Shown here: positions 17,575-44,455 of the stretch, one piece after another
How the letters are laid out: every line of letters starts with the position of its first letter
Numbering within the stretch: the first letter of the stretch is position 1
NCBI RefSeq assembly: GCF_025751535.1
Contig: NZ_JAOWLC010000003.1
Location: forward strand, 62,001 to 126,000
Direction of reading: 5' to 3'
Length of the DNA: 64,000 nucleotides
DNA from: Lentibacter sp. XHP0401
Lineage (GTDB): Bacteria; Pseudomonadota; Alphaproteobacteria; Rhodobacterales; Rhodobacteraceae
Translations under genes and position numbers: made by a program
Notes under the pieces: generated by a model
Told to the model about the DNA's origin: nothing
The model's database searches: none
What the model saw: the letters and a program-made list of their open reading frames with translations, nothing else

Positions 17575-17618
17575 TTCCTCTTTCTATAAATATCCCGGGG
17601 TCTGGGGCAGCGCCCCAG
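17575..17618 (+). repeat. Modular palindromic intergenic repeat, copy B (short form)
   Basis: Leader CCTCTTTCT-AT-AAATATCCCGGGG followed by the GC hairpin CTGGGGC-agc-GCCCCAG (17602-17618). The end module is absent. It starts four bases after the thiolase stop and lies on the same strand. Confidence 0.8.
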
Positions 17619-17642
17619 CTCTCCTGTTACAAGAAACACATC

Positions 17643-18095
17643 ATGCGCGTTAACTACACCACCCTCACAAAAACCATCCACTCGCTCACAACAGGCGAAA
17701 CCGACGAGGTCGCTCTTATGGCGACGCTGGTTTGCGAGCTTCATCACAGTGACGACCGCTTCGACTGGACAGGGTTTTACCGTGTAACAGAGCCTAACCT
17801 GCTCAAGATCGGTCCCTATCAAGGCGGCCACGGCTGCCTGCAAATCCCGTTCTCCCGCGGCGTCTGCGGCGCAGCAGCGCGAACGCGCAAAGTGCAGCTT
17901 GTCGACGATGTCGAAAGCTTCGAGGGCCATATCGCCTGCGCCTCCAGCACTCGCTCCGAGCTTGTCCTGCCGGTGTTCAACGCGGCGCACGAGGTGATCG
18001 CTGTGCTTGATATCGACAGCGACCAGCCCTCAGCGTTTACACACGAAGACGCGCAGGCTTTGGAGGCGATACTTGCCGAGGTTTTTGCACGGTGA
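17643..18095 (+). CDS. GAF-domain free methionine-(R)-sulfoxide reductase
   Basis: A 150-residue single GAF domain. Its three cysteines, C65 in HGCLQ, C75 in RGVCGAA and C99 in HIACAS, have the spacing (10 and 24) of the catalytic cysteines of E. coli fRMsr (YebR: 84, 94, 118). This makes it an enzyme that reduces free methionine-(R)-sulfoxide rather than a sensory GAF protein. DRFDWTGFY, GPYQGGHGCL and SRSELVLPV-like segments also fit. It would recycle oxidised free methionine in the cytoplasm, complementing the protein-acting MsrA at 39.9 kb. Repeats B and C flank it on both sides, so it is probably a single-gene unit. Confidence 0.88.
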   Translation: MRVNYTTLTKTIHSLTTGETDEVALMATLVCELHHSDDRFDWTGFYRVTEPNLLKIGPYQGGHGCLQIPFSRGVCGAAARTRKVQLVDDVESFEGHIACASSTRSELVLPVFNAAHEVIAVLDIDSDQPSAFTHEDAQALEAILAEVFAR

Positions 18096-18100
18096 GTTGA

Positions 18101-18239
18101 TTTCGAATTTCGCTTCGCGAAATCCGACCGTTGAGGGGGCCAGCCCCCTCAAATTCCTGAGAGTTTACAAACGCAAGCCGACAGAGCGCACTTGCTGCGC
18201 AGAATCGGCCCCTCGGTATATTTATTGCAATAAGAAAGA
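18101..18239 (-). repeat. Modular palindromic intergenic repeat, copy C (inverted, enlarged)
   Basis: The only copy facing left. Read on the minus strand: leader CTTTCTTATTGC-AAT-AAATAT (ending near 18218), an inserted hairpin built of CCGA/TCGG and GCGCA/TGCGC arms (18179-18208), a spacer, the GC hairpin TTGAGGGGGC/GCCCCCTCAA (18131-18152, perfect 10-bp arms) and the end module with ATTTCGC-gaa-GCGAAAT (18107-18124). It follows the GAF gene on the opposite strand. Confidence 0.8.
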
Positions 18240-18244
18240 CTCTT

Positions 18245-18269
18245 GTGAAAAAAGGCTTTGAAATTTCAT
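18245..18269. promoter_or_regulatory. Operator-like inverted repeat O1 before the XRE gene
   Basis: GTGAAA-N13-TTTCAT, containing also a perfect TGAAATTTCA palindrome at 18259-18268. The same half-site spacing recurs in O2, 39 bases downstream. Probably a binding site for the regulator encoded next. Confidence 0.55.
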
Positions 18270-18283
18270 GCCCTTGAGGCATC

Positions 18284-18308
18284 GTGAAAATAATAGAGCA
18301 AATTTCAC
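18284..18308. promoter_or_regulatory. Operator-like inverted repeat O2 before the XRE gene
   Basis: GTGAAA-N13-TTTCAC, ending nine bases before the XRE start codon. Together with O1 it forms a tandem pair with identical spacer length, typical of an autoregulated repressor; binding there would block transcription or translation start of the operon. Confidence 0.58.
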
Positions 18309-18317
18309 GGGATTCGA

Positions 18318-18887
18318 ATGAACCAAAAGGCCAGCCCTTCGCAAACTCTCGGAGCCGACCTGCGTGCATTACGTAAAGCACGTGGGCTGACGTTGAGTGA
18401 CATGGCCGACACCTTAGGCCGTTCTGTCGGCTGGCTCAGTCAGGTGGAGCGTGATTTGTCCGAGCCCTCCATCACCGATCTGCGCCATATTGCCCGCGCA
18501 CTCGGCGTTTCTGTTTCCATGCTGTTCAGCCACGCGCCCGCGCCGGCAGGCGAGGCGGGATATGTTGTGCGCAGAGGTGCGCGTCGCCCCATCGGCTCGG
18601 GCGAGGCGGGGCTTGTCGAAGAGTTACTCTCTCCCGATCTCACCGATGATTTCGAGATGGTTCACTCAACTTTCAAGCCGCATTCACGCATTGGGGAAGA
18701 AGTCACCCGCCCAACTCAGGAGGTCGGTTACCTAATCTCTGGCAAGCTTGATCTCGTCATCAGCGGTGCGCGCTTCACGATCCACCCGGGTGACAGTTTC
18801 CGCATCCGTGGCGAGCCTTTCGAATGGATCAACCCCTACGATGACCCAGCCGTTGCGATCTGGGTCATTGCGCCGCCGGTGTATTAA
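18318..18887 (+). CDS. XRE-family regulator with C-terminal cupin domain
   Basis: A 189-residue transcription factor: an N-terminal helix-turn-helix of the XRE/Cro type (about residues 12-66, LRALRKARGLTLSDMADTLG and WLSQVERDLSEPS) and a C-terminal cupin barrel (about 105-185, HPGDSFRIRGEPFEW) that would sense a small ligand. Proteins with this build usually control amine or amino-acid metabolism. It heads a tightly packed set (lysE, GFA, lysE, dehydrogenase, methyltransferase) with gaps of one to five bases, so it probably controls that operon and itself through the two GTGAAA-N13-TTTCAY repeats just upstream. The ligand may be a methylated amine such as dimethylglycine or sarcosine; that is an inference from the neighbours. 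Confidence 0.9.
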   Translation: MNQKASPSQTLGADLRALRKARGLTLSDMADTLGRSVGWLSQVERDLSEPSITDLRHIARALGVSVSMLFSHAPAPAGEAGYVVRRGARRPIGSGEAGLVEELLSPDLTDDFEMVHSTFKPHSRIGEEVTRPTQEVGYLISGKLDLVISGARFTIHPGDSFRIRGEPFEWINPYDDPAVAIWVIAPPVY

Positions 18888-18889
18888 TC

Positions 18890-19504
18890 ATGAGCTTCGA
18901 GGCCTGGACCATATTCGCGCTTTTCTGGCTGGTGTTCGTCACCACCCCGGGGCCAAATGCCGTCAACTGCATCCAATCGGGTATGAGCCTCGGCTTCCTG
19001 CGCGCTTTGCCCGCAGTGGCCGCGATTCTCTGCCAAGCCTCACTGTTCCTGACGCTCTCGGCTTTCGGCATCACAGCACTGCTCGCCGCATCCCCAACAG
19101 CATTCCTTGCGCTCAAATACGCAGGCGCAGGCTTTCTCGTTTATCTCGGCTTGCGCGCAATCCTAAGGGCACATCTGCCCATCGAAGCCAGCGCACACGC
19201 GGGCCGCACTCTCTTCTGGCGGTCTTTTCTGATCGCCACGATCAACCCGAAATCTGTTGCCGGTTACCTAGCCGCCTTCAGCCAGTTTGTAGACCCGAAC
19301 GCGCCGATAGCGCAGCAAATGTGGGTCATCGTGCCCACGGCGCTCACGCTTACAAGCTTTAGTTATTGCACCTACACCGCCCTCGGCACGGGGCTTGGAA
19401 AGCTCGCGCTCGGCGCGGTATTCAACGCTTGGTTCCGTCGTGTCATGGGCCTTTGTTTCATCGCCTATGGCCTCGCCCTCGGCGCAACAACGGGGAGAAT
19501 GTGA
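18890..19504 (+). CDS. LysE/RhtB-family exporter (first)
   Basis: A 204-residue inner-membrane protein of the LysE/RhtB family, with about six hydrophobic segments and the signature TPGPNAVNCIQSGMSLG near the N terminus and ATINPKSVAGYLAAF in the middle. These proteins export amino acids or related compounds. The gene starts two bases after the XRE stop and its own stop overlaps the RBS region of the GFA gene, so it is part of the same operon. A second, distinct LysE protein is encoded two genes downstream; their substrates may be different products of betaine breakdown, such as glycine or sarcosine, but no residue tells which. Confidence 0.88.
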   Translation: MSFEAWTIFALFWLVFVTTPGPNAVNCIQSGMSLGFLRALPAVAAILCQASLFLTLSAFGITALLAASPTAFLALKYAGAGFLVYLGLRAILRAHLPIEASAHAGRTLFWRSFLIATINPKSVAGYLAAFSQFVDPNAPIAQQMWVIVPTALTLTSFSYCTYTALGTGLGKLALGAVFNAWFRRVMGLCFIAYGLALGATTGRM

Positions 19505-19505
19505 C

Positions 19506-19877
19506 ATGCTGAAAGGCTCCTGCCTCTGCGGCGCATGCAGCTTTGAAACAACTGCCAAGCCGCAAGGTCCTTCCATGTGCCACTGCGCCCAATGCCGCGC
19601 ACAGTCTGGTGGCATCTGGTCCTCGGCTTACGTTCCGCGCGCCGAATTGCACATCTCCGGCCCGGTCAAATGGTTCGCTTCCTCAGAGGCAGCCCACCGT
19701 GGTTTCTGCCCCGAATGCGGCAGCTTCCTCTTCTGGGAGGCCCACGTTGAGGACACCACCAGCTTTTCTCTCGGCAGCATCACAGACCCCACCGGGCTAC
19801 GCCTTGAGAAGCACATTTTCACAGCCAGCAAAGGCGATTATTACGATATCGCCGATGGCCTTCCGCAGAAGGAATAG
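19506..19877 (+). CDS. GFA-family zinc protein (glutathione-dependent formaldehyde-activating-like)
   Basis: A 123-residue protein of the GFA fold, with all the zinc cysteines: C6 and C8 plus C11 in SCLCGAC, C25, C27 and C30 in CHCAQC, and C68 and C71 in CPECGS. Some family members were named for joining formaldehyde with glutathione, though the enzymatic nature of many is doubtful. The position is telling: it lies in an operon whose dehydrogenases strip N-methyl groups and can release formaldehyde when tetrahydrofolate runs short. The ATG at 19506 lies one base after the previous stop; the frame is open for 37 codons upstream, but the family starts here. A trap for formaldehyde is inferred only. 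Confidence 0.85.
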   Translation: MLKGSCLCGACSFETTAKPQGPSMCHCAQCRAQSGGIWSSAYVPRAELHISGPVKWFASSEAAHRGFCPECGSFLFWEAHVEDTTSFSLGSITDPTGLRLEKHIFTASKGDYYDIADGLPQKE

Positions 19878-19880
19878 GCC

Positions 19881-20504
19881 ATGTTAGAGACGGTTTTTAC
19901 CATGGACCCTGCCCTCATCCTTGCCTTCACAGGCGCAGGCATTCTGCTCAATATCACCCCCGGCTCCGATGTGGCCTTTTCAATGGCTTCCGGTATTTCG
20001 GGTGGTCCCCGCGCAGGCATCGCCGCCGCCACGGGGATCACTCTCGGGGGCCTCACACATGTGCTGTTTGCCGTTCTGGGTATATCCGCCGCGCTCATGG
20101 CGGTGCCTCACGCCTACGATATTATCCGCTATCTTGGCGCGGCCTATCTCATCCTGCTCGCCGTCAAAACATGGCGCGCCCCGCCCGAGCTTGAAAAGGC
20201 GCGCGGCGCAACCCGTCTCATCTCGGCCCTCAAGCGCGGCTATCTGACCAATCTGCTCAACCCGAAAGTCGCGCTCTTTATCCTTGCGTTCCTGCCCCAG
20301 TTCACCCGCCCGGAAGCAGGGCCAGTCTGGCAGCAAATCCTCATCCTTGGTCTCATCTTCAACGCCTCGGGCCTTGTCATCAACAGCACCTATGGCATTG
20401 CAGCTGGCCTCGCAGGCCACCGTATCATCCGTATGGGTGGAACCCTCAATAAAATCACATCCATCGTCTTCGGCGGCCTCGCTGCGCGCCTCATCTGGGA
20501 GTAA
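19881..20504 (+). CDS. LysE/RhtB-family exporter (second)
   Basis: A 207-residue LysE-family membrane protein with about six hydrophobic segments. The start region is MLETVFTMDPALIL, with a second ATG at 19902 that could serve instead. Signature parts are NITPGSDVAFSMASGISGG and GYLTNLLNPKVALFILAFLPQF, the NPK motif being typical for the family. It starts three bases after the GFA stop and ends five bases before the first dehydrogenase, so it belongs to the same transcript. It shares little sequence with the first LysE gene, so the pair did not arise by a recent local duplication. Confidence 0.88.
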   Translation: MLETVFTMDPALILAFTGAGILLNITPGSDVAFSMASGISGGPRAGIAAATGITLGGLTHVLFAVLGISAALMAVPHAYDIIRYLGAAYLILLAVKTWRAPPELEKARGATRLISALKRGYLTNLLNPKVALFILAFLPQFTRPEAGPVWQQILILGLIFNASGLVINSTYGIAAGLAGHRIIRMGGTLNKITSIVFGGLAARLIWE

Positions 20505-20509
20505 ACACC

Positions 20510-22960
20510 ATGTCCGATATTCCAAGCAAAGCCCGTGTGGTCATCATCGGCGGCGGCGTTGTCGGCTGCTCCGTGCTCTATCATCTCGGCCTCAAAGGCT
20601 GGACAGACTGCGTGCTGCTCGAGAAAAACGAGCTCACGGCCGGGTCTACATGGCACGCCGCTGGCAACGTGCCCACCTTCAGCACCTCATGGTCGATCAT
20701 GAACATGCAGCGCTACTCGACAGAGCTATATGCCCGCCTCGGCGCTGAAGTTGATTACCCGATGAACTACCACCAGACAGGCTCGCTCCGCCTCGCACAC
20801 TCCAAAGAGCGCATGCAAGAATTCGAGCGCGCCGCCTCTATGGGCCGCTACCAAGGCATGGATATCGAAATCCTCACGCCTGAAGAGACAAAGGCGCGCT
20901 ACCCCTTCCTCGAAACCCACGACCTCGCAGGCGCGCTCTTTGACCCGCATGATGGTGATATCGACCCCGCCCAACTTACCCAAGCCCTCGCCAAAGGCGC
21001 ACGCGACATGGGCCAGAAGGTGCTTCGTTTCACACCTGCCACAGGAGTCACCCAGCAGCCCGACAAGTCATGGATCGTGCACACTGAAAAAGGCGATATA
21101 GCCGCCGACTATGTGGTCAACGCCGCTGGTTACTACGCCCAGCGCGTCGGCGAGTGGTTCAAGCCCTATGGCGGGAGAACCGTGCCCATGATGGTGATGG
21201 AGCATCAATATCTGCTGACCGAGCAAATCCCCGAAATCGAGGCTTGGAGCAAAGACCACGGCAAGAAGCTCCCCCTGCTGCGCGATGTCGATGTTTCCTA
21301 TTACCTGCGTCAGGAAAAAGGCGGTTACAATCTTGGCCCCTACGAGCCAAATTGCAAAGCGCACTGGGACACCGACGCCGACAAAATGCCAGAGGATTTC
21401 TCCTTCCAACTCTGGCAGGAAGATCTCGACCGCATCGAGGATATCGTGACCGACGCGATGGAGCGTGTGCCGCTCATGGCCTCTTCGGGTGTCTCAAGCG
21501 TCATCAACGGCCCGATTCCTTACGCCCCTGACGGCCTTCCGCTCATCGGCCCCATGCCGGGGGTTGATAATGCCTTCGAGGCCTGTGTCTTTACCTTCGG
21601 CATCGCCCAAGGCGGCGGCGCGGGCAAAGTCATGGCAGAGTGGATTGTCGATGGCCAGACCGAGTGGGATATGTGGTCCGTCGATCCGCGCCGCTACACG
21701 GATTACACCGATCACGCCTACTGCGTGGCGAAAGGCATGGAAGTCTATGGCAACGAATACGCCATGCACTTCCCGTGGCACGAATGGCCCGCTGGCCGCG
21801 ACCAGAAGCTCTCCCCGGTTCATGACCGGGTGCTTGCCCAAGGCGGCGTCATGGGCGCCTACAACGGCTGGGAGCGCGCCAACTGGTTTGCACAGGAGGG
21901 CGATGACACATCGCTTGACGCCACCCATACATGGGGCCGCGCAGGCCCATGGGAGCAACGCATCCGCGAAGAATGCGAAGCCGTCCGCGACAACGTCGGC
22001 GTGCTCGATCTTCCCGGTTTCTCCCGCTTCAACCTGTCAGGCGAGGGCGCAGCCGAGTTCCTGCACGAACAAATCACAGGCGCTCTGCCCAAGATCGGCC
22101 GCATGAACCTGATGTATTTCGCCGACAGTCGCGGCCGCATCCTCACCGAAATGTCCTGTGTCCGCCACGATGAGGATTTCTTCACCCTCATCACAGCCGC
22201 CACAGCCCAATGGCACGATTTCGAGCTGCTCCGCTCGCGCCTGCCCGCAGACCTAACTCTCACAGATCACAGCACCGAGTTCGGCACACTCATCGTCACT
22301 GGCCCCAAAGCGCGTGACCTTTTCCAAAGCATCGGAACAGAAGCCGACCTCTCCCTGCCATGGCTCTCCCACCAGTCCGCAACAGTCGCTGGCCAGCCCT
22401 GCGCTCTCGCCCGTGTCTCTTTCGCAGGCGAGCTCGGCTGGGAGGTCCACGCCGCCAACGCAAACCTGCCCGTCATCTACGAAGCCATCCTCGCCGCAGG
22501 TGCAAAACCCTTCGGCATGTGGGCACTCAACTCGCTCCGTTTGGAAAAAGGCTACCGCGCATGGAAGGGTGACCTCTCCACAGACTACTCCCTCTTCGAG
22601 GGTGGGCTTGACCGCTTCGTCAAACTCGACAAACCACAAGACTTCCCCGGAAAATCCGCCCTGCAAGCTGAACGCCAACAAGGCCCCAAAAAGCGCTTCG
22701 TCACCCTCCTTGTCGAGGCTGGCGACACAGACGCGCCCTATATGTCCTGCCTCTACTCCGGTGGTGAAATCGTGGGCGAAACAACCTCGGGCGGCTGGGG
22801 CTACCGCATCGGCAAATCCATCGCCTTGGGCATGGTAAGAGTCGATCTGGCCATGCCCGGCACAGAGCTTGAAGTCGAAATCTACGGCACGCGTCACAGA
22901 GCCGTGGTGCAAGAAGACGCCCCCCTCTGGGACGCCGCAAACGAAAGGCTGCGCGCATGA
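20510..22960 (+). CDS. FAD/GcvT-type dimethylglycine/sarcosine dehydrogenase (first)
   Basis: An 816-residue enzyme with an N-terminal FAD-binding oxidase domain (G14-G-G16-VV-G19), a middle domain, and a C-terminal aminomethyltransferase (GcvT) part of about 370 residues. His49 in STWHAAGN aligns with the histidine that binds FAD covalently in mammalian dimethylglycine and sarcosine dehydrogenases. The reaction expected is oxidative removal of an N-methyl group, handed to tetrahydrofolate in the GcvT domain as 5,10-methylene-tetrahydrofolate. It overlaps the homocysteine methyltransferase gene by four bases (ATGA). A paralogue of equal length follows at 23.9 kb; which takes dimethylglycine and which sarcosine, or something else, cannot be settled here. 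Confidence 0.85.
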   Translation: MSDIPSKARVVIIGGGVVGCSVLYHLGLKGWTDCVLLEKNELTAGSTWHAAGNVPTFSTSWSIMNMQRYSTELYARLGAEVDYPMNYHQTGSLRLAHSKERMQEFERAASMGRYQGMDIEILTPEETKARYPFLETHDLAGALFDPHDGDIDPAQLTQALAKGARDMGQKVLRFTPATGVTQQPDKSWIVHTEKGDIAADYVVNAAGYYAQRVGEWFKPYGGRTVPMMVMEHQYLLTEQIPEIEAWSKDHGKKLPLLRDVDVSYYLRQEKGGYNLGPYEPNCKAHWDTDADKMPEDFSFQLWQEDLDRIEDIVTDAMERVPLMASSGVSSVINGPIPYAPDGLPLIGPMPGVDNAFEACVFTFGIAQGGGAGKVMAEWIVDGQTEWDMWSVDPRRYTDYTDHAYCVAKGMEVYGNEYAMHFPWHEWPAGRDQKLSPVHDRVLAQGGVMGAYNGWERANWFAQEGDDTSLDATHTWGRAGPWEQRIREECEAVRDNVGVLDLPGFSRFNLSGEGAAEFLHEQITGALPKIGRMNLMYFADSRGRILTEMSCVRHDEDFFTLITAATAQWHDFELLRSRLPADLTLTDHSTEFGTLIVTGPKARDLFQSIGTEADLSLPWLSHQSATVAGQPCALARVSFAGELGWEVHAANANLPVIYEAILAAGAKPFGMWALNSLRLEKGYRAWKGDLSTDYSLFEGGLDRFVKLDKPQDFPGKSALQAERQQGPKKRFVTLLVEAGDTDAPYMSCLYSGGEIVGETTSGGWGYRIGKSIALGMVRVDLAMPGTELEVEIYGTRHRAVVQEDAPLWDAANERLRA

Positions 22961-23853: not shown

Positions 23854-23905
23854 CCTTTCTTATTGCCACAAATATCCTGGGGGGTGCGGGGGGCTAGCCC
23901 CCCGC
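23854..23905 (+). repeat. Modular palindromic intergenic repeat, copy D (short form)
   Basis: Leader CCTTTCTTATTGCCAC-AAATATCCTGGGGGG beginning at the base after the stop codon, followed by a perfect GC hairpin GCGGGGGGC-ta-GCCCCCCGC (23886-23905). No complete end module. It separates two genes of the same pathway on the same strand. Confidence 0.85.
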
Positions 23906-23942
23906 CGCTCCGCCAAGCCCCAGCATCCATGGAGTCACACAA

Positions 23943-26390
23943 ATGCCCATCCTCCCCTCCAAAGCCCGCGTCGTCGTCATCGGTGGTGGCATCATCGGTT
24001 GCTCCGTCGCCTATCACCTCACCAAACTCGGCTGGAAAGACGTGGTGCTGCTTGAGCGCAAACAGCTCACATCAGGCACAACATGGCACGCCGCAGGCCT
24101 CATCGCCCAGCTCCGCGCGACCGCCAATATGACCAGGCTCGCCAAATACTCCCAAGAGCTCTACGGCAACCTTGAAGAAGAAACAGGCGTCGCCACCGGC
24201 TTCAAGCGTGTTGGCTCCATCACAGCCGCCCTCACCTCCGAGCGCCTCGAAGAGCTGCACCGCTCCGCCGCCATGGCTCGCGCCTTCGGCGTGCAGGTCG
24301 AGGAAATCTCCCCCTCCGAGATCAAACAGCGCTACGAACACCTCAACATCGAGGGCGTCACAGGCGGCGTCTACCTCCCGCTTGATGGTCAGGGTGACCC
24401 TGCCAACATAGCCCTCGCCCTCGCCAAAGGTGCGCGCCAGCGTGGCGCGACCGTGCAAGAGCGCGTAAAAGTCACTGACATTGCCAAAAACGGCCGCCGT
24501 GTCACTTCTGTGAGTTGGCAAGGCGAAGACGGCACATCAGGTGAAATCGAGGCCGATATGATCGTCAACTGCGCGGGCATGTGGGGCCACGAGGTCGGCA
24601 AGATGGCGGGTGTCAACGTCCCCCTTCACGCCTGCGAGCACTTCTATATCGTCTCCGAGCCTATCGCAGGCCTCACCCAGCTTCCTGTGCTGCGTGTGCC
24701 CGATGAATGCGCCTATTACAAGGAAGACGCAGGCAAGCTCATGCTCGGCGCGTTTGAACCCCGCGCGAAACCGTGGGGCATGGACGGCATCTCCGACGCG
24801 TTCGAGTTCGATCAGCTTCAGGAAGATTTCGACCACTTCGAACCAATCCTCGAAATGGCGGTCAACCGTATGCCCATGCTCGGCAAGGCAGGCATCCACA
24901 CCTTCTTCAACGGCCCCGAAAGCTTCACCCCTGACAACGCCTATCACCTCGGCTTCGCCCCCGAGATGGACAACGTCTGGGTCGCCGCCGGCTTCAACTC
25001 GATCGGCATCCAATCCGCCGGCGGCGCTGGCATGGCCCTCGCCGCGTGGATGGACACGGGCGAAAAACCTTTTGATCTCGGCGACGTCGATATCTCGCGC
25101 ATGCAGCCCTTCCAAGGGAACAAGCACTACCTCTTCGAGCGCTCCAAAGAAACGCTCGGCCTGCTCTACGCCGATCATTACCCCTTTCGCCAGAAAGCCA
25201 CAGCCCGTGGCGTCCGCCGCACGCCCTTCCACACCCAGCTCCTCGCTCAAGGCGCCGTCATGGGTGAGCTCGCAGGCTGGGAGCGCGCCAACTGGTTTGC
25301 AAACGCGGGCCAGAAGGCCGAATACGAATACTCGTGGCAGCGCCAGAACTGGTTTGACAACCGCGCCGCCGAGCATGCCGCAATCCGCCAAAACATCGGC
25401 ATGTATGATATGTCATCCTTCGGTAAACTGCGCGTCGAAGGCCCCGATGCCGAGCACTTCCTCAACCGTGTCTGCGGCGCAAACATGTCTGTTCCTGCTG
25501 GCAAGATCGTCTACACCCAGTTCCTCAATGCCAAAGGGGGCATCGAGGCCGATGTGACAGTCACCCGCCTCTCCGAGGCGGCCTATCTCGTCGTCACCCC
25601 CGCCGCAACGCGCCTCGCTGATGAAACATGGCTCAGGCGGCATTTGGGCAATGATAGAGCCATAGTCACCGATGTCACAGCAGCCGAAGGCGTCCTCGCC
25701 GTCATGGGCCCAAACGCACGCAAACTCCTGCAAGCCGTCTCGCCCAATGACTTCTCCAACGAGGCAAACCCCTTCGGAACAGCGCAAGAGATCGAGCTTG
25801 GCTTCGGCCTCGCCCGCGCGCACCGCGTTTCCTACGTGGGCGAGCTTGGCTGGGAAATCTACGTGAGCGCCGACATGGCCGCCCATGCCTTTGAAGTGCT
25901 GCACGAAGCAGGCCAACCTCTTGGCCTCAAGCTCTGTGGCATGCACGCGATGGACAGTTGCCGTATCGAGAAAGCCTTCCGCCACTTCGGTCACGATATC
26001 ACCTCCGAGGACAATGTCGTCGATGCAGGCCTCGGCTTCGCGGTTGATCTCTCCAAAACCGACTTCATAGGCAAAGCCGCCGTCGCCGTCCGCCGTGAAA
26101 GCGGCCCCAAAGCGCGTATGGTGCAGTTCCTTTTGGAAGACAGCCATCCGCTCCTCTACCACAACGAGCCGATCCTGCGTGATGGAGAGATCGTCGGCTA
26201 CCTAAGCTCAGGGGGCTACGGCCACACCCTCGGCGCAGCCGTCGGCCTTGGCTACGTTCCCTGCGAAGGCCAATCCGCCGCTGAGGTTCTGACAAGCTCC
26301 TATGAAATCGATATCAAAGGAACTCGCGTCAAAGCAACGGCCTCCCTCAAGCCGATGTATGATCCCAAATCAGAGAAAGTGCGCGCCTAG
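23943..26390 (+). CDS. FAD/GcvT-type dimethylglycine/sarcosine dehydrogenase (second)
   Basis: An 815-residue paralogue of the enzyme at 20.5 kb with the same order of domains: FAD-binding fold (GGGIIGCS, G14-G19), covalent-flavin His49 in TTWHAAGL, middle domain and C-terminal GcvT part with GELGWEIYVSADMAAHAFEV. It keeps AYYKEDAGKLMLGAFEPRA in the oxidase part, closer to mammalian dimethylglycine dehydrogenase than the first copy. With the methyltransferase it can complete betaine to dimethylglycine to sarcosine to glycine. It lies 89 bases behind the methyltransferase, with repeat D between; whether the repeat ends the upstream transcript or only tunes it is open. Repeat E follows its stop. 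Confidence 0.85.
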   Translation: MPILPSKARVVVIGGGIIGCSVAYHLTKLGWKDVVLLERKQLTSGTTWHAAGLIAQLRATANMTRLAKYSQELYGNLEEETGVATGFKRVGSITAALTSERLEELHRSAAMARAFGVQVEEISPSEIKQRYEHLNIEGVTGGVYLPLDGQGDPANIALALAKGARQRGATVQERVKVTDIAKNGRRVTSVSWQGEDGTSGEIEADMIVNCAGMWGHEVGKMAGVNVPLHACEHFYIVSEPIAGLTQLPVLRVPDECAYYKEDAGKLMLGAFEPRAKPWGMDGISDAFEFDQLQEDFDHFEPILEMAVNRMPMLGKAGIHTFFNGPESFTPDNAYHLGFAPEMDNVWVAAGFNSIGIQSAGGAGMALAAWMDTGEKPFDLGDVDISRMQPFQGNKHYLFERSKETLGLLYADHYPFRQKATARGVRRTPFHTQLLAQGAVMGELAGWERANWFANAGQKAEYEYSWQRQNWFDNRAAEHAAIRQNIGMYDMSSFGKLRVEGPDAEHFLNRVCGANMSVPAGKIVYTQFLNAKGGIEADVTVTRLSEAAYLVVTPAATRLADETWLRRHLGNDRAIVTDVTAAEGVLAVMGPNARKLLQAVSPNDFSNEANPFGTAQEIELGFGLARAHRVSYVGELGWEIYVSADMAAHAFEVLHEAGQPLGLKLCGMHAMDSCRIEKAFRHFGHDITSEDNVVDAGLGFAVDLSKTDFIGKAAVAVRRESGPKARMVQFLLEDSHPLLYHNEPILRDGEIVGYLSSGGYGHTLGAAVGLGYVPCEGQSAAEVLTSSYEIDIKGTRVKATASLKPMYDPKSEKVRA

Positions 26391-26475
26391 TCCTTCCTCT
26401 TTCTTCAAATATCCTGGGGAGCGCGAGGGGCAAAGCCCCTCGCCATGGTCGGATTGTGCAAAGCACAATTCGAAA
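26391..26475 (+). repeat. Modular palindromic intergenic repeat, copy E
   Basis: Leader TCCTTCCTCTTTCTTC-AAATATCCTGGGG right after the stop, GC hairpin GCGAGGGGC-aaa-GCCCCTCGC (26423-26443), end module TCGG-ATTGTGC-aaa-GCACAAT-TCGAA (26449-26474). Against copy A, one C:G pair of the end hairpin has become T:A, keeping the stem. Confidence 0.85.
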
Positions 26476-26547
26476 CCAAAGCGGTACATCACGGGGCTGG
26501 CCCTCCCCTCCAAAACCGCCTAATCAGGTCGAGAAGAGGACCACCCC

Positions 26548-28313: not shown

Positions 28314-28371
28314 CCTTGCCTTTCGCGCACCAAACCCTACCTACCCTTAAACCCTAGCTTCCGAGGCTCAA

Positions 28372-29169: not shown

Positions 29170-29196
29170 ACCATTCTCACGCAATGAGCGTTAGAC

Positions 29197-36521: not shown

Positions 36522-36657
36522 AGGCTCATCCCCCCGAATGGTTCGGGCCAAACTAATCTGCACAGCGACCGCGCGAAAGCCGAAAGTCGCGTTTTAGTTT
36601 GAGAGAATGGCCTGTAGCCGCTATGACAGCCCAACCCCTTCTTGAATCAGGCCCAAA

Positions 36658-38913: not shown

Positions 38914-38917
38914 CGCA

Positions 38918-39787
38918 ATGACCCTCTTCAACCTCGGCTCGATCAACCTTGACCACTTCTATGAAGTGCCTCACCTGCCCGCGCCGGGCGAAACGCTGAT
39001 TGCGGAAAGTCACCAAACCGGCCTCGGCGGCAAAGGCGCAAACCAGTCTGCCGCCGCCGCCCGGGCTGGCGCCCGCGTGGTTCATATCGGAGCGGTCGGC
39101 TCCGATGGCGCTTGGGCCGTCAACCGTCTCAATGAACTCGGCATCAACACCGCCCATATCTCCACAGTCAAAGCTCCCACCGCCCACGCGATCATCAATG
39201 TCGATCCCGCAGGTGAAAATGCCATCGTCGTTTTCTCCGGCGCCAACATGAAGCAGTCTCTAACACAGCTCAAAGCGGCCTTACTCACGGCCAAGCGCGG
39301 CGATATGCTGCTGCTGCAAAACGAGACCAATCTGGCGCTCGAAGCCGCCACGCTCGCCCGCAGCCTCGGCCTCAAGGTCGTCTACTCCGCCGCCCCGTTC
39401 AACGCCGGGGCCACCAAGGCTCTCCTCCCGCTCACCGATCTGCTCATCCTCAACGCTGTCGAAATGCAGCAGCTCACCGAGGCCACCAATTCAGAAGCCC
39501 TCACCCCCGCCACAATCGTCGTCACTGAAGGCTCCAAAGGCGGCTACGCCATCACACCAGAGGGCGAGCAACGCTTCCCCGCCTTCCCCGTCAAAGCGGT
39601 CGATACAACAGGCGCAGGCGATACCTTCACAGGCTATCTCGCCGCCGCCCTCCACGAAGGCCAGCCGCTTGAAAGCGCCCTGCGCCTCGCCGCCGCCGCC
39701 TCTGCCCTCAAAGTCACAAAAAAAGGGACAGCCGATGCCATCCCTTCCCGCGCCGATGTCGAAGTTTTCCTAGCCGCTCAAACCTGA
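38918..39787 (+). CDS. rbsK: PfkB-family sugar kinase, probable ribokinase
   Basis: A 289-residue PfkB-family kinase. Seen: GSINLDHFYEVPHLPAPGET (about residues 5-24), the GGKGANQSAAAARAGA substrate-binding stretch, and the anion hole and base in DTTGAGDTFTG near residue 230. The Gly-rich GGKGANQ fits ribokinase better than fructokinase, so ribose to ribose 5-phosphate is likely. No ribose transporter is nearby. The ATG at 38918 lies four bases after the malic enzyme stop, so the genes are probably co-transcribed, though not functionally related. Repeat F follows three bases after the stop. Confidence 0.85.
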   Translation: MTLFNLGSINLDHFYEVPHLPAPGETLIAESHQTGLGGKGANQSAAAARAGARVVHIGAVGSDGAWAVNRLNELGINTAHISTVKAPTAHAIINVDPAGENAIVVFSGANMKQSLTQLKAALLTAKRGDMLLLQNETNLALEAATLARSLGLKVVYSAAPFNAGATKALLPLTDLLILNAVEMQQLTEATNSEALTPATIVVTEGSKGGYAITPEGEQRFPAFPVKAVDTTGAGDTFTGYLAAALHEGQPLESALRLAAAASALKVTKKGTADAIPSRADVEVFLAAQT

Positions 39788-39790
39788 TTA

Positions 39791-39897
39791 CCCTTTCTTT
39801 TTGCCACAAATATCCTGGGGGGACGATACAAAAGCCTGCGGCTTTTGAATCCGGGGGGCTAGCCCCCCGCGGATCGGCTTGCGAAGCAAGTCGAAGC
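39791..39897 (+). repeat. Modular palindromic intergenic repeat, copy F (four modules)
   Basis: Leader CCTTTCTTTTTGCCAC-AAATATCCTGGGGGG; an extra hairpin CAAAAGCC-tgc-GGCTTTTG (39829-39847); GC hairpin CGGGGGGC-ta-GCCCCCCG (39852-39869); end module TCGG-CTTGC-gaa-GCAAG-TCGAA (39874-39895). It fills the gap between the convergent rbsK and msrA genes. The end hairpin has almost wholly different stem bases from copy A while keeping the flanks. Confidence 0.88.
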
Positions 39898-39898
39898 T

Positions 39899-40549
39899 TC
39901 ACCCCGCAAATGGCGCAGCCCCGCCCCATATCGCTTTCACCCTGGCATCACGCCCACAAGCCTTGCGATAAAACTTATAGGCAGATGCCTTGCTCTTCGG
40001 CCCTGCCCGCGTCAGCACAATATCAGAGCTTTTGTAATAATCCTGATGATACGCCTCGGCTGGATAAAACCCGTTCAGCGGCAAAACCTTGGTGGCAATC
40101 TTGCCCCCCAGGTCCTTGCCCGCCTCGCTCACTGCCTTCTCTGCCGCAGCCTTTTGCTCTGCTCCGTTGTAAAACAGCGCTGTCTTATACGCTGGCCCAC
40201 GGTCACAAAACTGCCCGCCTGCATCCAGCGGATCAATCGAGCGCATAAATTTATGCAAAATCTCGTCACGGCTGATCTTGCCCGCGTCAAAAGTGATCTT
40301 CACAACCTCATAATGCCCCGTATGGTTCTTGTAAGTCGGGTTGGTTGATTTACCCCCCGCAAAGCCGGACACAGCATCAATCACACCGGGAACTTTCTCG
40401 AAATCCGATTCAACACACCAGAAACACCCCCCGGCCACTACAATCTCTTCACGCGGCCCCGCATGGGCAACGCCACATTGCAGCAACAGGGCAACGCCAA
40501 TCAGCGCCGCCAACATCACCGCCTTCATTTCTCTCACACAGCACATCAT
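39899..40549 (-). CDS. msrA: Peptide methionine-(S)-sulfoxide reductase MsrA, secreted form
   Basis: A 216-residue MsrA that reduces methionine-(S)-sulfoxide in proteins. The catalytic Cys is in GGCFWCVESDF; ending with GFYPAEAYHQDYY, the family core is complete. A signal peptide precedes it (MMCCVREMKAVML and a hydrophobic run ending GVAHA), so it should act in the periplasm, where hypochlorite damage occurs. AGGAGGG lies seven bases before the ATG at 40547-40549, which decides this start. Resolving cysteines would be in GGQFCDRGP and KACGRD. It is divergent from the aminotransferase gene. It is separate from the free-methionine reductase at 17.6 kb. Confidence 0.92.
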   Translation of the reverse strand: MMCCVREMKAVMLAALIGVALLLQCGVAHAGPREEIVVAGGCFWCVESDFEKVPGVIDAVSGFAGGKSTNPTYKNHTGHYEVVKITFDAGKISRDEILHKFMRSIDPLDAGGQFCDRGPAYKTALFYNGAEQKAAAEKAVSEAGKDLGGKIATKVLPLNGFYPAEAYHQDYYKSSDIVLTRAGPKSKASAYKFYRKACGRDARVKAIWGGAAPFAG

Positions 40550-40658
40550 GGCTTTCCCTCCTGCCAAATTTGCCTTCACTCTAGCGCTGAAAAACTCCGC
40601 TGTAGACAGCCCTCACAGAGAGGTTACTACTTGTTCCCGAAACGTGAGAGGCCGAAAC

Positions 40659-41564
40659 ATGAGTGACAAAATAACAACCCACGCCGCCGAGGAAGACGCC
40701 CGCAACGAGCAAATCCTAATATGGCTCAACGGTCGCTGCGTGCCCAAAGCCGAAGCGCTCGTCAGCGTCTATGACAGTGGCTTCATGCTGGGCGATGGCG
40801 TCTGGGAGGGCCTGCGCCTCTACAATGGCAACTGGGCCTTCTGGGGTGAGCATTTTGACCGCCTCTTCGAGGCCGCCAAAGCGATTGATCTTGATATAGG
40901 AATGACCCGCGATCAGCTCTATTCCGCCTTATTAGAGACGCAAAAAGCCAATGACATGACAACAGACGCCCACGCGCGCCTCATGGTCACCCGGGGCGTC
41001 AAGACCCGTCCCTTTCAGCATCCATCCCTCAGCCGCCAAGGCCCGACAATCACAATCATCATGGAGCATTCCCAGCCCAAGATCCCGCGTCCGATCCGCC
41101 TTGCAACAGTCCCGCACATCCGCGGTCTGCCGATGACCCAGGATCCCAAGCTGAACTCCCATTCCAAGCTCAACTGCATTCTCGCCTGTATTGCCGCCGA
41201 AAAGGCCGGTGCCGACGAGGCGCTGATGCTCGATATCAACGGCTTCGTAAACACAACCAACGCCTGTAATTTCTTCATCGTCCGAAAAGGCGCTGTCTGG
41301 ACCAGCACGGGAGACTACTGCATGAACGGCATCACCCGCCAGAAAGTGATTGATCTCTGCCGTGCCGATGGCATCCCCGTCTTCGAGCGCAACTATAGCC
41401 TTGTCGATACATACGGCGCCGATGAAGCCTTCCTCACCGGCACATTCGGCGCACAAACCCCCGTCAGCGAGATTGATGGCCGCCCCATCGGCACAGGAAA
41501 TATGGGCCCCGTCACCAAACGTCTTCGCACGCTTTACAAAGATCTGATCGGGGCCAGCGCATGA
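40659..41564 (+). CDS. Class IV PLP aminotransferase (branched-chain/D-amino-acid type), atypical site
   Basis: A 301-residue fold-type IV PLP enzyme. The N-terminal SVYDSGFMLGDGVWEGLRLY and the Schiff-base Lys170 in NSHSKLNCILA are typical of branched-chain and D-amino-acid aminotransferases. The usual Glu that contacts the pyridine nitrogen (the E of EGxxxN) seems to be replaced: the corresponding stretch reads VNTTNACNFF, with Thr at that position. This makes the substrate and even the reaction uncertain. The ATG at 40659 is chosen because the family starts there; a longer frame upstream is a shadow. The stop overlaps the start of a sulfotransferase-like gene by four bases (ATGA), a pairing that is also found fused in plant proteins. 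Confidence 0.82.
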   Translation: MSDKITTHAAEEDARNEQILIWLNGRCVPKAEALVSVYDSGFMLGDGVWEGLRLYNGNWAFWGEHFDRLFEAAKAIDLDIGMTRDQLYSALLETQKANDMTTDAHARLMVTRGVKTRPFQHPSLSRQGPTITIIMEHSQPKIPRPIRLATVPHIRGLPMTQDPKLNSHSKLNCILACIAAEKAGADEALMLDINGFVNTTNACNFFIVRKGAVWTSTGDYCMNGITRQKVIDLCRADGIPVFERNYSLVDTYGADEAFLTGTFGAQTPVSEIDGRPIGTGNMGPVTKRLRTLYKDLIGASA

Positions 41565-42277
41565 CAACAATCGCCATGTGGTCCGGCCCGCGCAACCTCT
41601 CAACCGCGCTCATGTATAGCTTCGGAAACCGCGCTGATTTCACCGTGGTGGACGAGCCCTTCTATGCCCACTACCTGCGCGAAACAGGCCTCGCGCATCC
41701 CATGCGCGAAGGGGTGCTCGCCAGCCAACCGCAAGACGCCGAGGCAGTGGTTCAGTCTCTAACGCAGCCAAAAAAGCAACATTTCTACCAAAAACACATG
41801 TGCCAGCACATGCTACCCTCCGTGCCGCGCGGCTGGATGCTTACCGTGCAAAATGTCTTTCTCATCCGTCACCCCGCCCGCGTCATCGCCAGCTTCGGTG
41901 CGAAATATGAGGGCTTCGGTCTGGCCGATATCGGCTTCTCCCAACAGCTCGAGCTTTTCGAAATGCTCCGCGCCGAGGGAAAAAACCCGATCGTCATCGA
42001 CAGCGCCGATATTCGCAACGCGCCCGAGCATATGCTCACCAAGCTCTGCACCGTCCTCGGCCTGCCGTTTGATACCGCCATGCTGCACTGGCCCAAAGGC
42101 GGCCATGCTTCCGACGGCGCATGGGCTCCACACTGGTATAACGCCGTTCATGCCTCCACCGGTTTTGCCGGCCCCGAAGGCCCGCTACCCGATATGGAAA
42201 CACCCGAACAACAGCAGCTGCTCGCCAAAGCCCTGCCCGTTTACAAGGCGCTGAGCACATGCAAACTAACGCCCTAA
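41561..42277 (+). CDS. Sulfotransferase-like P-loop protein
   Basis: A 238-residue protein that begins AMWSGPRNLSTALMYSFGNR, resembling the 5'-phosphosulfate-binding loop of PAPS sulfotransferases, and continues with LIRHPARVIASF, like their 3'-phosphate motif. It could transfer sulfate to a hydroxyl or amine, or merely bind a nucleotide. It is translationally coupled to the class IV aminotransferase before it and overlaps the next gene by 19 bases. In plants, a similar domain is found in front of a class IV aminotransferase in one chain, which supports a shared pathway. The acceptor molecule is unknown. Confidence 0.75.
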   Translation: MTTIAMWSGPRNLSTALMYSFGNRADFTVVDEPFYAHYLRETGLAHPMREGVLASQPQDAEAVVQSLTQPKKQHFYQKHMCQHMLPSVPRGWMLTVQNVFLIRHPARVIASFGAKYEGFGLADIGFSQQLELFEMLRAEGKNPIVIDSADIRNAPEHMLTKLCTVLGLPFDTAMLHWPKGGHASDGAWAPHWYNAVHASTGFAGPEGPLPDMETPEQQQLLAKALPVYKALSTCKLTP

Positions 42278-43206
42278 CTGAAAGCTTTTCCGCTGTAATA
42301 GAGACGATTTCTGCCAAAAAGCGGCGCTACAAGTTTGAATTGAGCCTAGGCGCTTCCCTGCTCATCGCTGCCTGCTTGGGGATGGCAACAGCAGACGGCG
42401 ACATGGTAGGCGCCTTCGCGCTTCTTAGCCTCGGTTTGTTCGGTCTTTACACCTTGCAAATCAACCGTTTCAAAAAGCACAGCACCGATCTCATCATGCC
42501 TCTGCTCTGCAACGCGGTTGAAGGCCTCGCCTACAACGGCCTGCAAGAACCGCCCTTTGTCGATCGTGAAAAAGAACTTCTCCTGCCTGGCGGCTACTTC
42601 AGCGGGCACAGCATCAGCCTGACAGGCAAGTTCGGCAACCAGTGGTTCCGCCAGTTTAATGTCACACTAGAAGAATCAGACGGCGACAACACCAAAACTA
42701 CCTTCCGCGGCGTTGTCCTTCAATTGCCGCCCCTTGGTATTGCGCCGCCACTTCTCGTCCGCCCAAACAGCCGCGCACGCGGGGCGCTCGGCACGTGGGT
42801 CTTCGGCCCGAATGACCCTATGCCAGCCAAAACTGAACTTGGCAGGCTCTCGGCAAACGGCGAAGCTCTAACCCTTTTTGCCCCCGATGAAGCCACAATC
42901 GACACCTACGCCACGAATCTCAAAGCCCTCATCGCCACCTCCGATGCCACCTTCACCGACAGCGCCACAATCGACACGGCCCTCATAACCCAAAGCGCCA
43001 CATGGCTCGCAATCTCCGATAACTCCCTGCCGTTTTCCATCGGCGGGTTGTTTCAATCCAGAACAGCTCTCGCCGCCGATATCGAGCGCGCCTCAGCCGA
43101 ACTCGCAGTGCCGCTGCGCCTCATGCAGCTCTGGGTAGACGGCCTCCGCAAAAAACCCGAACCGCCCACATCCCCGAAATTGCACGCCAAAACTGCTACC
43201 TTTTAA
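42259..43206 (+). CDS. Membrane protein of unknown function, DUF3137-like
   Basis: A 315-residue protein with two hydrophobic segments (about residues 28-45 and 50-66) near the start and a large soluble part behind, probably cytoplasmic. Its layout, with a short N-terminal cytosolic stretch, a membrane hairpin and a mixed alpha/beta domain containing FRGVVLQLP, resembles the DUF3137 group, but I recognise no catalytic motif. The start ATG lies inside the sulfotransferase gene, 19 bases overlapping, so translation is probably coupled. The ribosome-binding site is weak. A function for the pair or trio cannot be given. Confidence 0.7.
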   Translation: MQTNALTESFSAVIETISAKKRRYKFELSLGASLLIAACLGMATADGDMVGAFALLSLGLFGLYTLQINRFKKHSTDLIMPLLCNAVEGLAYNGLQEPPFVDREKELLLPGGYFSGHSISLTGKFGNQWFRQFNVTLEESDGDNTKTTFRGVVLQLPPLGIAPPLLVRPNSRARGALGTWVFGPNDPMPAKTELGRLSANGEALTLFAPDEATIDTYATNLKALIATSDATFTDSATIDTALITQSATWLAISDNSLPFSIGGLFQSRTALAADIERASAELAVPLRLMQLWVDGLRKKPEPPTSPKLHAKTATF

Positions 43207-43293
43207 CCCAGTTTCCGTTGATTAAGCACATTCCCCTTGTCTCACATCGCGGTTGCTCTATCTGTCTTGCAAGCAACAATAAGACAGAGACGT

Positions 43294-44331
43294 ATGAACA
43301 TAGCATCCGCCTTCCCGAACGAGCAGACCACCAAAACCAAGTCAGCAAAAGAATGGGTCACAACACTGGCCAAGTTCCGCGAGCCAAACGCAGCCCGCAG
43401 CAATTTCGAGCTTTTGGTCACGGCCATTCCCTTTCTGGCTCTCTGGGCGCTCGCTTGGGCCTCCCTCTCTGTCAGCTATTGGCTCACGCTCGTGCTATCC
43501 GTGCCAATAGCGGCGTTCCTCCTCCGCCTCTTCACAATCCAGCATGATTGCGGCCACGGCTCCCTGTTCAAAAACCGTGACATGAGCGATTGGATCGGGC
43601 GTGGCCTCGGCGTGCTCACCCTCACCCCCTATGATGTCTGGCGCCGCACCCACGCGATTCATCATTCCTCGCACGGCAATCTCGCCAAGCGTGGCATCGG
43701 CGATATCGTCACCCTCACCGTGGCTGAATATCAGGCGCTCTCACCGCTCTGGAAACTTCAGTATCGCGCCTATCGCAACCCGTTCTTCCTCTTCGGCTTT
43801 GTCCCCGCCTATCTCTTCTTCATCCAGCAGCGCTTCCCCGTGGGCCTCACGCGCACACCCAAATACTGGGTCTCCGCCATGCTCACCAATCTGGCAATCC
43901 TTACAATCCTCGGCACGCTTTACTATTTCGGCGGTTGGGCTCCGATCCTGCTTATCTTCGTCCCCTCAACCCTGCTCGCCGCAACCGCTGGCATGTGGCT
44001 CTTCTACGTCCAGCACCAGTTCGAAGAAACAACATGGGACCAGAATGAAAACTGGGATCTACACGACGCCGCGCTCTACGGCAGCTCGCACTATATCCTG
44101 CCCTCATGGATCAACTGGTTCAGCGCCAACATCGGCATCCACCATGTTCATCACCTCTATGCGCGCATCCCGTTCTACCGCCTGCCAGAAGTGCTGCGCG
44201 AGAACGCCGAACTGGCCGAGATCAACCGTATGACAATCCGCGAAAGCCTCGCCAGCGTTCGCATGCACCTCTGGGATGAAAACGGCAAACGTCTGCTTTC
44301 CTTCCGTCAAGCGCGCGCAATGACCGCCTAA
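43294..44331 (+). CDS. Fatty acid desaturase family protein
   Basis: A 345-residue membrane-bound di-iron desaturase. The three histidine boxes are present: H84-DCGH-88, H120-AIHH-124 and HHVHH at about residue 281. Hydrophobic pairs at about 40-80 and 175-235 fit the four-helix topology. It should introduce a double bond into an acyl chain with O2 and an electron donor; chain position and carrier are unknown, although the boxes resemble the omega-type bacterial group more than sphingolipid desaturases. The ATG at 43294 was chosen because upstream codons lack family character. Repeat G follows ten bases after the stop, before the convergent SCP2 gene. Confidence 0.85.
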   Translation: MNIASAFPNEQTTKTKSAKEWVTTLAKFREPNAARSNFELLVTAIPFLALWALAWASLSVSYWLTLVLSVPIAAFLLRLFTIQHDCGHGSLFKNRDMSDWIGRGLGVLTLTPYDVWRRTHAIHHSSHGNLAKRGIGDIVTLTVAEYQALSPLWKLQYRAYRNPFFLFGFVPAYLFFIQQRFPVGLTRTPKYWVSAMLTNLAILTILGTLYYFGGWAPILLIFVPSTLLAATAGMWLFYVQHQFEETTWDQNENWDLHDAALYGSSHYILPSWINWFSANIGIHHVHHLYARIPFYRLPEVLRENAELAEINRMTIRESLASVRMHLWDENGKRLLSFRQARAMTA

Positions 44332-44340
44332 CAACAACCA

Positions 44341-44455
44341 CTCTTTCTTATTGCTCCAAATATCCTAGGGGGAGGATTCAAAAGCTCTAAAGCTTTTGAA
44401 TCAGGGGGACTAGTCCCCCGCCTCGGTCGGATTCTCGCGCAGCGAAAATTCGAAG
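44341..44455 (+). repeat. Modular palindromic intergenic repeat, copy G (four modules)
   Basis: Leader CTCTTTCTTATTGCTCC-AAATATCCTAGGGGG; extra hairpin GATTCAAAAGCT-ctaa-AGCTTTTGAATC (44375-44402, perfect 12-bp arms); GC palindrome GGGGGAC-ta-GTCCCCC (44404-44419); end module TCGG-ATTCTCGC-gca-GCGAAAAT-TCGAA. In the GC hairpin, G:C has become A:T in both arms compared with copies D and F. It lies between convergent genes. Confidence 0.88.

Follow-up and report, generated by a model that had tools for sequence, protein, structure and literature searches.

The 64,000-nucleotide (nt) stretch of Lentibacter sp. XHP0401 considered here, referred to throughout as the window (contig NZ_JAOWLC010000003.1, positions 62,001 to 126,000), contains seven copies of an intergenic repeat in which a purine run (R1), its mirror image (R2) and a pyrimidine run complementary to R2 (Y) follow each other on one strand. 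On balance we favour the view that these copies belong to a family-wide extragenic element of the Rhodobacteraceae that forms a class I purine-motif intrastrand triplex, acts as a boundary in both directions at gene ends and is recognised through its leader by a separate factor. At the level of sequence, these and related copies establish a covariation of three strands, obedience to the triad rules of such triplexes, a base pair that would cap the structure, a placement at stop codons in either orientation and a leader whose spelling is specific to the genome, and they strongly support the triplex fold of the module itself. A preliminary description of the window had recognised the GC hairpin at the core, which is present, but had missed the mirror repeat, i.e. 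the triplex layout, which is the main feature of the element.

Within each element the order from 5' to 3' is leader, pyrimidine base, R1, spacer, R2, short loop and Y. The spacer between R1 and R2 is usually 3 nt long (163 of the 230 mirror modules have this exact length; the others are mostly longer and often a hairpin), and the loop between R2 and Y comprises 4-5 nt. Modules were extracted with a parser that requires the core AARTAYY and purines at the first three R1 bases, and that misreads copies with A-rich stems in an inserted hairpin; the loci behind the 250 modules obtained were mostly retrieved by leader or core patterns. In modules whose R2 includes an A, a direct R1, which would be an alternative Watson-Crick partner of Y, can be distinguished from a mirror R1, which would be an antiparallel third strand. 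The 34 asymmetric modules of the Lentibacter genome comprise 29 mirror, no direct and 5 that are neither, and the 49 from other loci comprise 37 mirror, 1 direct and 11 neither. With symmetric modules included, the mirror holds in 70 of 75 modules from this genome and in 160 of 175 from others, in the class I order (third strand-R-Y, antiparallel), whereas in 10,000 trials with R1 shuffled among the copies of this genome the number of mirror matches never exceeded 37.

Neither the mirror-versus-direct pattern tests nor the family-wide module counts use the leader. Independently of leader and parser, the mirror pattern GGGGAG-NNN-GAGGGG-N3-6-CCCCTC has 625 matches in 114 of 295 Rhodobacteraceae genomes, against a single match (in genome G285) for its reversed control and one match in one of the 295 genomes for the direct pattern GAGGGG-NNN-GAGGGG-N3-6-CCCCTC, which has the same composition. 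The parser, when run on reversed sequences, returned 6 modules, none of them mirror. At least ten distinct third strands occur, for example GGGGAG, GGGGGAG, GGGAGAG, GGGGAGAG, AGGGGG, GAGGGGG, AGGGGGAG and GGGAGG, and each is accompanied by its own mirror and its own complement. Even where the modules are symmetric, the lengths of R1 and R2 agree in 96 of the 102 that have a 3-nt spacer; the shorter run of these all-G modules measures 4-5 nt in 76 and 6 nt in 26, and asymmetric modules mostly measure 6-8 nt.

The identity of the third-strand bases follows the same logic. Purine-motif triplexes are built from G.G-C, A.A-T and T.A-T triads, as set out in excerpts of Holder et al. 2015 (PMC4666352), the source in excerpt of our statements on that paper. 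Over the 250 modules, a duplex A is faced in the third strand by A in 82 cases, T in 14, G in 1 and C in none, and a duplex G by G in 1286, A in 6, T in 1 and C in none, so that 1382 of 1390 third-strand positions form one of the three triads. The pattern persists at positions 4 and beyond, which the parser leaves unconstrained (opposite A: A 50, T 14, G 1; opposite G: G 572, A 2, T 1), and when T is permitted opposite A, 79 of 83 asymmetric modules fit.

A further regularity concerns two bases outside the three strands. In 217 of 222 mirror modules with a 4-5 nt loop, the base before R1 is complementary to the third loop base, as C with G (180 cases) or T with A (37); the exceptions are T-G (2), C-C (2) and C-T (1). 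Two further genomes (G200 and G187) show the same pairing without exception, in 50 of 50 and 59 of 59 modules. A plain hairpin would give these two bases no reason to meet, whereas a triplex places the start of R1 at that very loop. This tertiary-type pair adds to the evidence from covariation.

A conserved leader precedes the module. In the Lentibacter genome it is a T-rich tract that mostly ends in TTGC, followed by YNN and then AAATAYYC; across the 70 mirror modules of this genome, TT stands at positions -13/-12 in all 70, G at -5 in 65 and C at -4 in 69, and a pyrimidine (69 of 70), two free bases and AAATATCC come next. A shared leader had been noted before, but as a single spelling, whereas we find several (CTTTCTTNTTGC, CTTTTTTCTTGC and CCTTCCTCTTTC among them), followed by YNN and AAATATCC. 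A leader-blind sample of 20-kb pieces from congeners yielded 17 mirror modules, of which 16, judged by eye, have a pyrimidine-rich tract in the same place. Downstream of Y, the end hairpin between TCGG and TCGAA is likewise real but is one of more than one type: over 109 sites of this genome we count TCGN..TCGA in 44, GCG..GCGCAA in 23, a third type in 6 and none recognised in 36, with patterns crude enough that some of the 38 distinct matches are plainly chance. At 20 of the 109 sites, by a crude pattern, the leader or core has no adjoining G module. Several loci in several genomes (L104, L120, L132, L142, L143 and L147, among others) have the leader directly followed by CCGCCGGAGGC and no triplex module, so that leader and module are separable. 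At five loci (L134-L138, in G267, G192, G183, G241 and G082) paired leaders stand head to head on opposite strands, 15-23 nt apart; there the whole leader could pair with its partner, and at one of the five the complementarity includes the three free bases.

All seven copies reported for the window exist, within 1-2 bases of where the preliminary description had placed them. A covariance model of leader and G module, built from copies of this genome that include some of the seven, recovers all seven and no other site of the window at E <= 1.8e-5; the match that follows them has E 0.25. The parser accepts four of them; copies 3, 6 and 7 were read by eye. Copy 1 (13170-13248, plus strand) has the leader CTTTCTTTTTGC-TCC-AAATATCC-T (13170-13193), the third strand R1 GGGGG (13194-13198), a 3-nt loop TCT (13199-13201), R2 GGGGG (13202-13206), the loop CAAAG (13207-13211), Y CCCCC (13212-13216) and a TCGG..TCGAA end hairpin (13223-13248); it begins 20 bases after the stop of the gene at 12820-13149 and is followed by a convergent gene at 13255-13635. 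Copy 2 (17573-17616, plus strand) lies between tandem genes at 16399-17571 and 17643-18095, and consists of the leader CCTTCCTCTTTC-TAT-AAATATCC-C (17573-17596), R1 GGGG (17597-17600), the loop TCT, R2 GGGG (17604-17607), the loop CAGCG (17608-17612) and Y CCCC (17613-17616), without an end hairpin. The copy previously placed at 18101, copy 3, runs on the minus strand from 18238 down to 18102, opposite to both flanking genes: its leader (18215-18238) is separated by an insertion of about 50 nt from a degenerate third strand (18154-18159), after which come TTT (18151-18153), R2 GAGGGGG (18144-18150), the loop CTGG (18140-18143), Y CCCCCTC (18133-18139) and an end hairpin (18102-18127). Its ortholog in G296, on the same strand, reads GGGGGAG-TTT-GAGGGGG-CTGG-CCCCCTC.

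The remaining copies are all on the plus strand. Copy 4 (23855-23903) has the leader CTTTCTTATTGC-CAC-AAATATCC-T (23855-23878), R1 GGGGGG (23879-23884), the loop TGC, R2 GGGGGG (23888-23893), the loop CTAG (23894-23897) and Y CCCCCC (23898-23903), and no end hairpin. Copy 5 (26392-26474), whose module is identical in G295 and G298, is asymmetric: the leader CCTTCCTCTTTC-TTC-AAATATCC-T (26392-26415) is followed by R1 GGGGAG (26416-26421), the loop CGC, the mirror R2 GAGGGG (26425-26430), the loop CAAAG (26431-26435), Y CCCCTC (26436-26441) and an end hairpin (26449-26474). In copy 6 (39793-39895) the leader (39793-39816) and R1 GGGGGG (39817-39822) are separated from R2 GGGGGG (39853-39858) by a spacer containing a hairpin (39823-39852), with the loop CTAG (39859-39862), Y CCCCCC (39863-39868) and an end hairpin (39874-39895) thereafter. 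Copy 7 (44343-44454) is built in the same way, with a leader (44343-44366), R1 AGGGGG (44367-44372), a hairpin spacer (44373-44403), R2 GGGGGA (44404-44409), the loop CTAG (44410-44413), Y TCCCCC (44414-44419) and an end hairpin (44427-44454); here R2 is the mirror of R1 and a direct-repeat reading fails.

Over the whole 3.71-Mb genome, AAATATCCYGGGG has 67 exact matches (reversed-pattern control, 0), the leader at up to 2 mismatches has 96 (control, 1), and the union of core and leader searches amounts to 109 sites. The covariance search that the preliminary description had called for finds at least 117 copies in this genome (G000) at E <= 0.001 and at least 81, 117, 88, 138, 35 and 69 in the six congeners (G295-G300), each count being a lower bound in that 150 candidates were scored per genome. 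Neither an absence of further copies nor random placement was thus found. Across the family, the module pattern occurs in 222 of 295 genomes, one per genus (control, 0 matches), with a match count that may score one site repeatedly where gap lengths allow, against 6 of 285 genomes from other families of the class, with 1-5 matches each; the supposition of a lineage-specific element is well borne out. Two of the outside genomes, G313 and G445 of another family (f14), have 5 and 2 module matches with runs of 4 Gs, possibly through transfer or an older origin. Among the matches listed, the named carriers of the leader followed by CCNGG are mostly Rhodobacteraceae, such as Roseovarius, Marivita, Loktanella, Lentibacter, Leisingera and Shimia. 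Two records, Flavobacteriia AQU-04 (L203) and Roseobacter AQU-03 (L236), include a contig of identical name and length (42515) with the leader, and one of these metagenome-assembled genome labels is probably wrong.

Leader spelling varies between close relatives. Counts of the TTGC-type leader are 106, 1, 89, 1, 31, 0 and 77 in G000 and G295-G300, and TTTC, TTGG and CTGGTC forms are seen in place of TTGC. Congeners that seem to switch the element on or off are an artefact of a pattern requiring TTGC, as the covariance model finds copies in all seven. Such concerted drift would be expected if the leader were read by a trans-acting factor; gene conversion is the alternative. Positions are partly conserved: among the 31 G300 copies that lie within 20 stretches, 9 have both flanks matching those of a G000 copy, and at these sites the interior of the element is often largely rewritten with its symmetry kept. 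Copy 1 and copy 4 of the window each have a counterpart at the corresponding site in four of six congeners (for copy 4, G295, G296, G297 and G298, with the leader spelled otherwise), and the other copies in one to three, some of these counterparts being degenerate or altered. G299 is without all seven, in a comparison where not every congener is comparable at every site, and at the site of copy 2 both G299 and G300 are without the element, with closely fitted intergenic gaps.

Gene contexts were assigned with a home-made gene caller based on codon scores. Both neighbours were called for 206 mirror modules: 80 of these lie between convergent genes, 63 between tandem genes on their strand, 57 between tandem genes on the opposite strand and 6 between divergent genes, as compared with 13% convergent, 65% tandem and 21% divergent for intergenic sequence by length (263 kb, from three genomes, the modules coming from many); 12 of 230 mirror modules fall inside a predicted gene. 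Both tandem orientations adjoin stop codons: the leader starts within 40 nt of the stop in 54 of the 63 same-strand copies, and the neighbour's stop codon lies within 60 nt of the Y end, end hairpin included, in 46 of the 57 opposite-strand copies. The placement near stop codons proposed in the preliminary description therefore stands, while the strand rule that it implied fails over many copies. Same-strand and opposite-strand tandem copies number 18 and 10 in the Lentibacter genome, 45 and 47 in the others, and 24 and 19 when all 109 sites of the own genome are considered. In 18 of the 57 opposite-strand copies the leader lies within 16 nt of, or overlaps, the called start of the next gene, so that its purine-rich complement falls at the position that a ribosome-binding site would occupy.

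The element is no less intact when it lies opposite to the genes. Its leader tract is about as rich in pyrimidines in one tandem orientation as in the other (fractions of 0.949 and 0.930), and the mirror is kept at least as well on the opposite strand (of the asymmetric modules there, 14 are mirror and 1 is not, as compared with 11 and 5). An intact mirror on the opposite strand argues for DNA, because purine-motif triplexes are said not to form in RNA (PMC4666352). We regard this as sequence-based evidence for selection on the DNA rather than on one transcript, short of proof since both RNAs also have the hairpins. No T run follows the hairpins at the seven window copies, and terminator scans covering all seven hit only one of them, copy 7, whose end has a weak match on the minus strand, so that a GC hairpin with a T run on the strand of the gene, as in an intrinsic terminator, was seen at none of them; we rejected the intrinsic terminator as the principal explanation for these reasons. 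Given also the near-equal tandem counts and the intact leader and mirror on the opposite strand, the transcript end that had been suggested for the repeats is not supported in a strand-specific form.

Among known systems, the element, best described as a class I intrastrand-triplex element, is closest to the E. coli PIT/BoxC/TM-ECO triplex repeat, with the strand order reversed. These intrastrand triplex repeats of E. coli and its relatives (Hoyne and Maher, cited in PMC4666352) share with ours the purine-motif triplex on one strand, the 3-nt loop between the purine strands, the intergenic location, the lack of strand bias, some inverted pairs and a copy number that is very uneven between relatives. 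However, the E. coli order is Y-R-third strand (class II) whereas that of the Rhodobacteraceae is third strand-R-Y (class I): the TM-ECO consensus is 5'-CCCTCNCCC-N3-6-GGGNGAGGG-N3-GGGNGAGGG-3', and our parsed mirror modules, on which the comparison is based, have the opposite order. Stems that vary and covary also set the Rhodobacteraceae element apart, as does its position adjoining stop codons, the E. coli motif having no set distance from genes; leader, capping pair and end hairpins have no mention for the E. coli motif in the excerpts of PMC4666352. The melting temperatures of oligonucleotides with that motif are 70-82 C, and in vitro DNA polymerase is blocked by PIT elements (PMC4666352). 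The words Rhodobacter, Roseobacter and Alphaproteobacteria are absent from the main text of the paper. Its search was limited to stems of 6-15 nt and to loops of 1-6 nt, the hairpin spacers being longer than this loop limit; single copies with stems of at least 6 may stand unremarked in its ITxF database.

Other likenesses are more partial. Intergenic repeats of the archaeal Methanomicrobiaceae have the same G-rich, G-rich, C-rich order on one strand, lie near gene ends or starts, and were proposed and tested in solution as hairpin, antiparallel triplex or quadruplex, but are described as recurrent potential quadruplexes, with no mirror-versus-direct test and no leader in the excerpts of that paper (PMC8044849). 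Mirror repeats of H-DNA are purine mirror repeats with the same triads; their third strand comes from unwound duplex, whereas the Rhodobacteraceae element encodes all three strands in one, with dedicated loops (PMC4666352). In the open-access literature, to which our search was directed, we found no description of the element in Rhodobacteraceae. Repetitive extragenic palindromic (REP) sequences and bacterial interspersed mosaic elements (BIMEs), with their REP-associated tyrosine transposases (RAYTs), are short palindromic extragenic repeats that occur in many copies at gene ends. The present element resembles them in all these respects (see also the RepRanger paper, PMC12306157), but its core is a mirror repeat plus complement, which is more than a palindrome. 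The REP-like label of the preliminary description thus fits a repeated, extragenic, palindrome-bearing element at gene ends with more than 100 copies, but not the link to a RAYT: the Y1_Tnp profile (PF01797) has 0 matches in the own genome, and the same search was positive in 5 of 14 control genomes. We therefore rejected a RAYT-driven REP, and equally an element carried by plasmids or phages, one copy having no BLAST match among plasmids and phages in collections that may omit records near the genome of the window.

The mechanism that we favour can be stated as follows. R1, the first strand, would bind by reverse-Hoogsteen pairing, followed by a 3-nt or hairpin loop, the mirror R2, a loop of 4-5 nt and Y paired with R2, and a Watson-Crick-type pair between the pyrimidine before R1 and the third loop base would cap the triplex. 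Selection would act on DNA that transcription or replication leaves single-stranded at the ends of genes, where the strand freed by passing polymerases could fold into the triplex; the folded strand may then slow polymerases or shed them and, as a boundary in both directions, isolate the genes on either side. The leader would be read by a putative trans-acting factor that drifts along with it. Whether element and reader form a two-part system, in which a gene-end triplex and a coevolving sequence-specific leader reader jointly set two-way gene boundaries, is a more demanding proposal that we consider doubtful.

Several points weigh against this interpretation. The triplex fold is a prediction from sequence, 7 of the 250 parsed modules violate the triad rules, and the parser itself presupposes purines at the first three R1 positions. 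The 76 all-G modules (3-nt spacer) whose shorter run is 4-5 nt would have only 4-5 triads, fewer than the 6-nt stems of PMC4666352. The counts overstate the number of independent events because the copies are related, and leader conservation is partly built in because the loci were chosen by leader or core patterns. A modest strand preference is possible in the own genome, given its 18 to 10 tandem copies, and the short tandem gaps at 17573 and 23855 speak against a strong terminator. A replication-oriented element was rejected, since the strands of the copies showed no bias with respect to replication (split permutation p 0.35 and 0.29 in two genomes), and replication is thus not singled out by any of the data. 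No candidate for the trans-acting factor emerged, Y1_Tnp being the only one sought. In E. coli, in vivo footprinting with dimethyl sulphate did not reveal the related triplex, and PIT elements were without promoter or terminator activity (PMC4666352).

A selfish or neutral repeat of the REP type, or resembling a miniature inverted-repeat transposable element, could owe its spread to a recombinase or to gene conversion and be tolerated nowhere but after stop codons; the mobilising enzyme would then recognise the triplex fold, and there would be no function for the host. The many copies in both orientations, the avoidance of promoters and coding sequence, the modules swapped at orthologous sites and the closely fitted gaps without an element at the copy 2 site in G299 and G300 all agree with this, and enzyme recognition would likewise predict a leader spelled in a genome-specific way. 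Against these stand the own genome without Y1_Tnp/RAYT, the absence of a plasmid or phage match for the one element searched, and positions that are partly old (the flank-matched G300 copies and the sites of copies 1 and 4 common to most congeners), and we consider such a repeat the strongest of the alternatives, though still unlikely. Slightly less probable is an element acting at the 3' end of RNA, where the hairpins would end or protect the mRNA and the pyrimidine-rich leader would bind an RNA protein or mark a processing site. The location close behind stop codons would suit it, as would the RNA folds of the seven copies (z -1.0 to -5.9 over 14 strands), the 18 to 10 tandem copies of the own genome and the motif AAAUAU, which could be an AU-rich site of the kind that Rhodobacter sphaeroides RNase E favours (PMC6238624, in excerpt). 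It does not explain the absence of an overall orientation preference (63 to 57), a leader tract and mirror no worse on the opposite strand, the missing T run with only one weak terminator match, or a third strand of a motif said not to form in RNA.

A G-quadruplex former, or an ordinary hairpin whose R1 could replace R2 as the Watson-Crick partner of Y, as in an RNA switch, is highly improbable. An all-G R1 can indeed pair with Y as well as R2 can, and two G runs exist; however, the direct repeat that alternative pairing requires was found once against 625 mirror matches, which already contradicts it and led us to reject it. A G-quadruplex formed from one strand requires four G runs, and the module has two.

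Ever since the work on PIT/BoxC, in which E. coli oligonucleotides fold very stably and in vivo footprinting and reporter tests were negative (PMC4666352), it has been an open question whether intrastrand DNA triplexes arise in living bacteria and are favoured by selection there. Compared with the papers cited here, as far as their excerpts go, the evidence is of a novel type, consisting of base-by-base covariation of three strands under triad rules over hundreds of copies in one bacterial family. If the two-part system were real, it would be a natural case of selection on a DNA triplex in cells, recorded as three-strand covariation. The natural variants are ready-made, which makes the question of triplexes in cells testable, and as the elements touch many gene ends in a widespread marine group, they should matter for the annotation of transcripts and gene boundaries.

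Two further features of the window may be mentioned. At the Rfam gathering score no family matches the elements, and the window as a whole has a single match, to SorX (singlet oxygen resistance RNA X, RF02784, 67.6 bits), at 515-588 on the plus strand. The 815-residue protein encoded at 23943-26390 belongs to a large paralogous set, with 17 matches in the own genome at E <= 0.001 and 16-20 in each congener.

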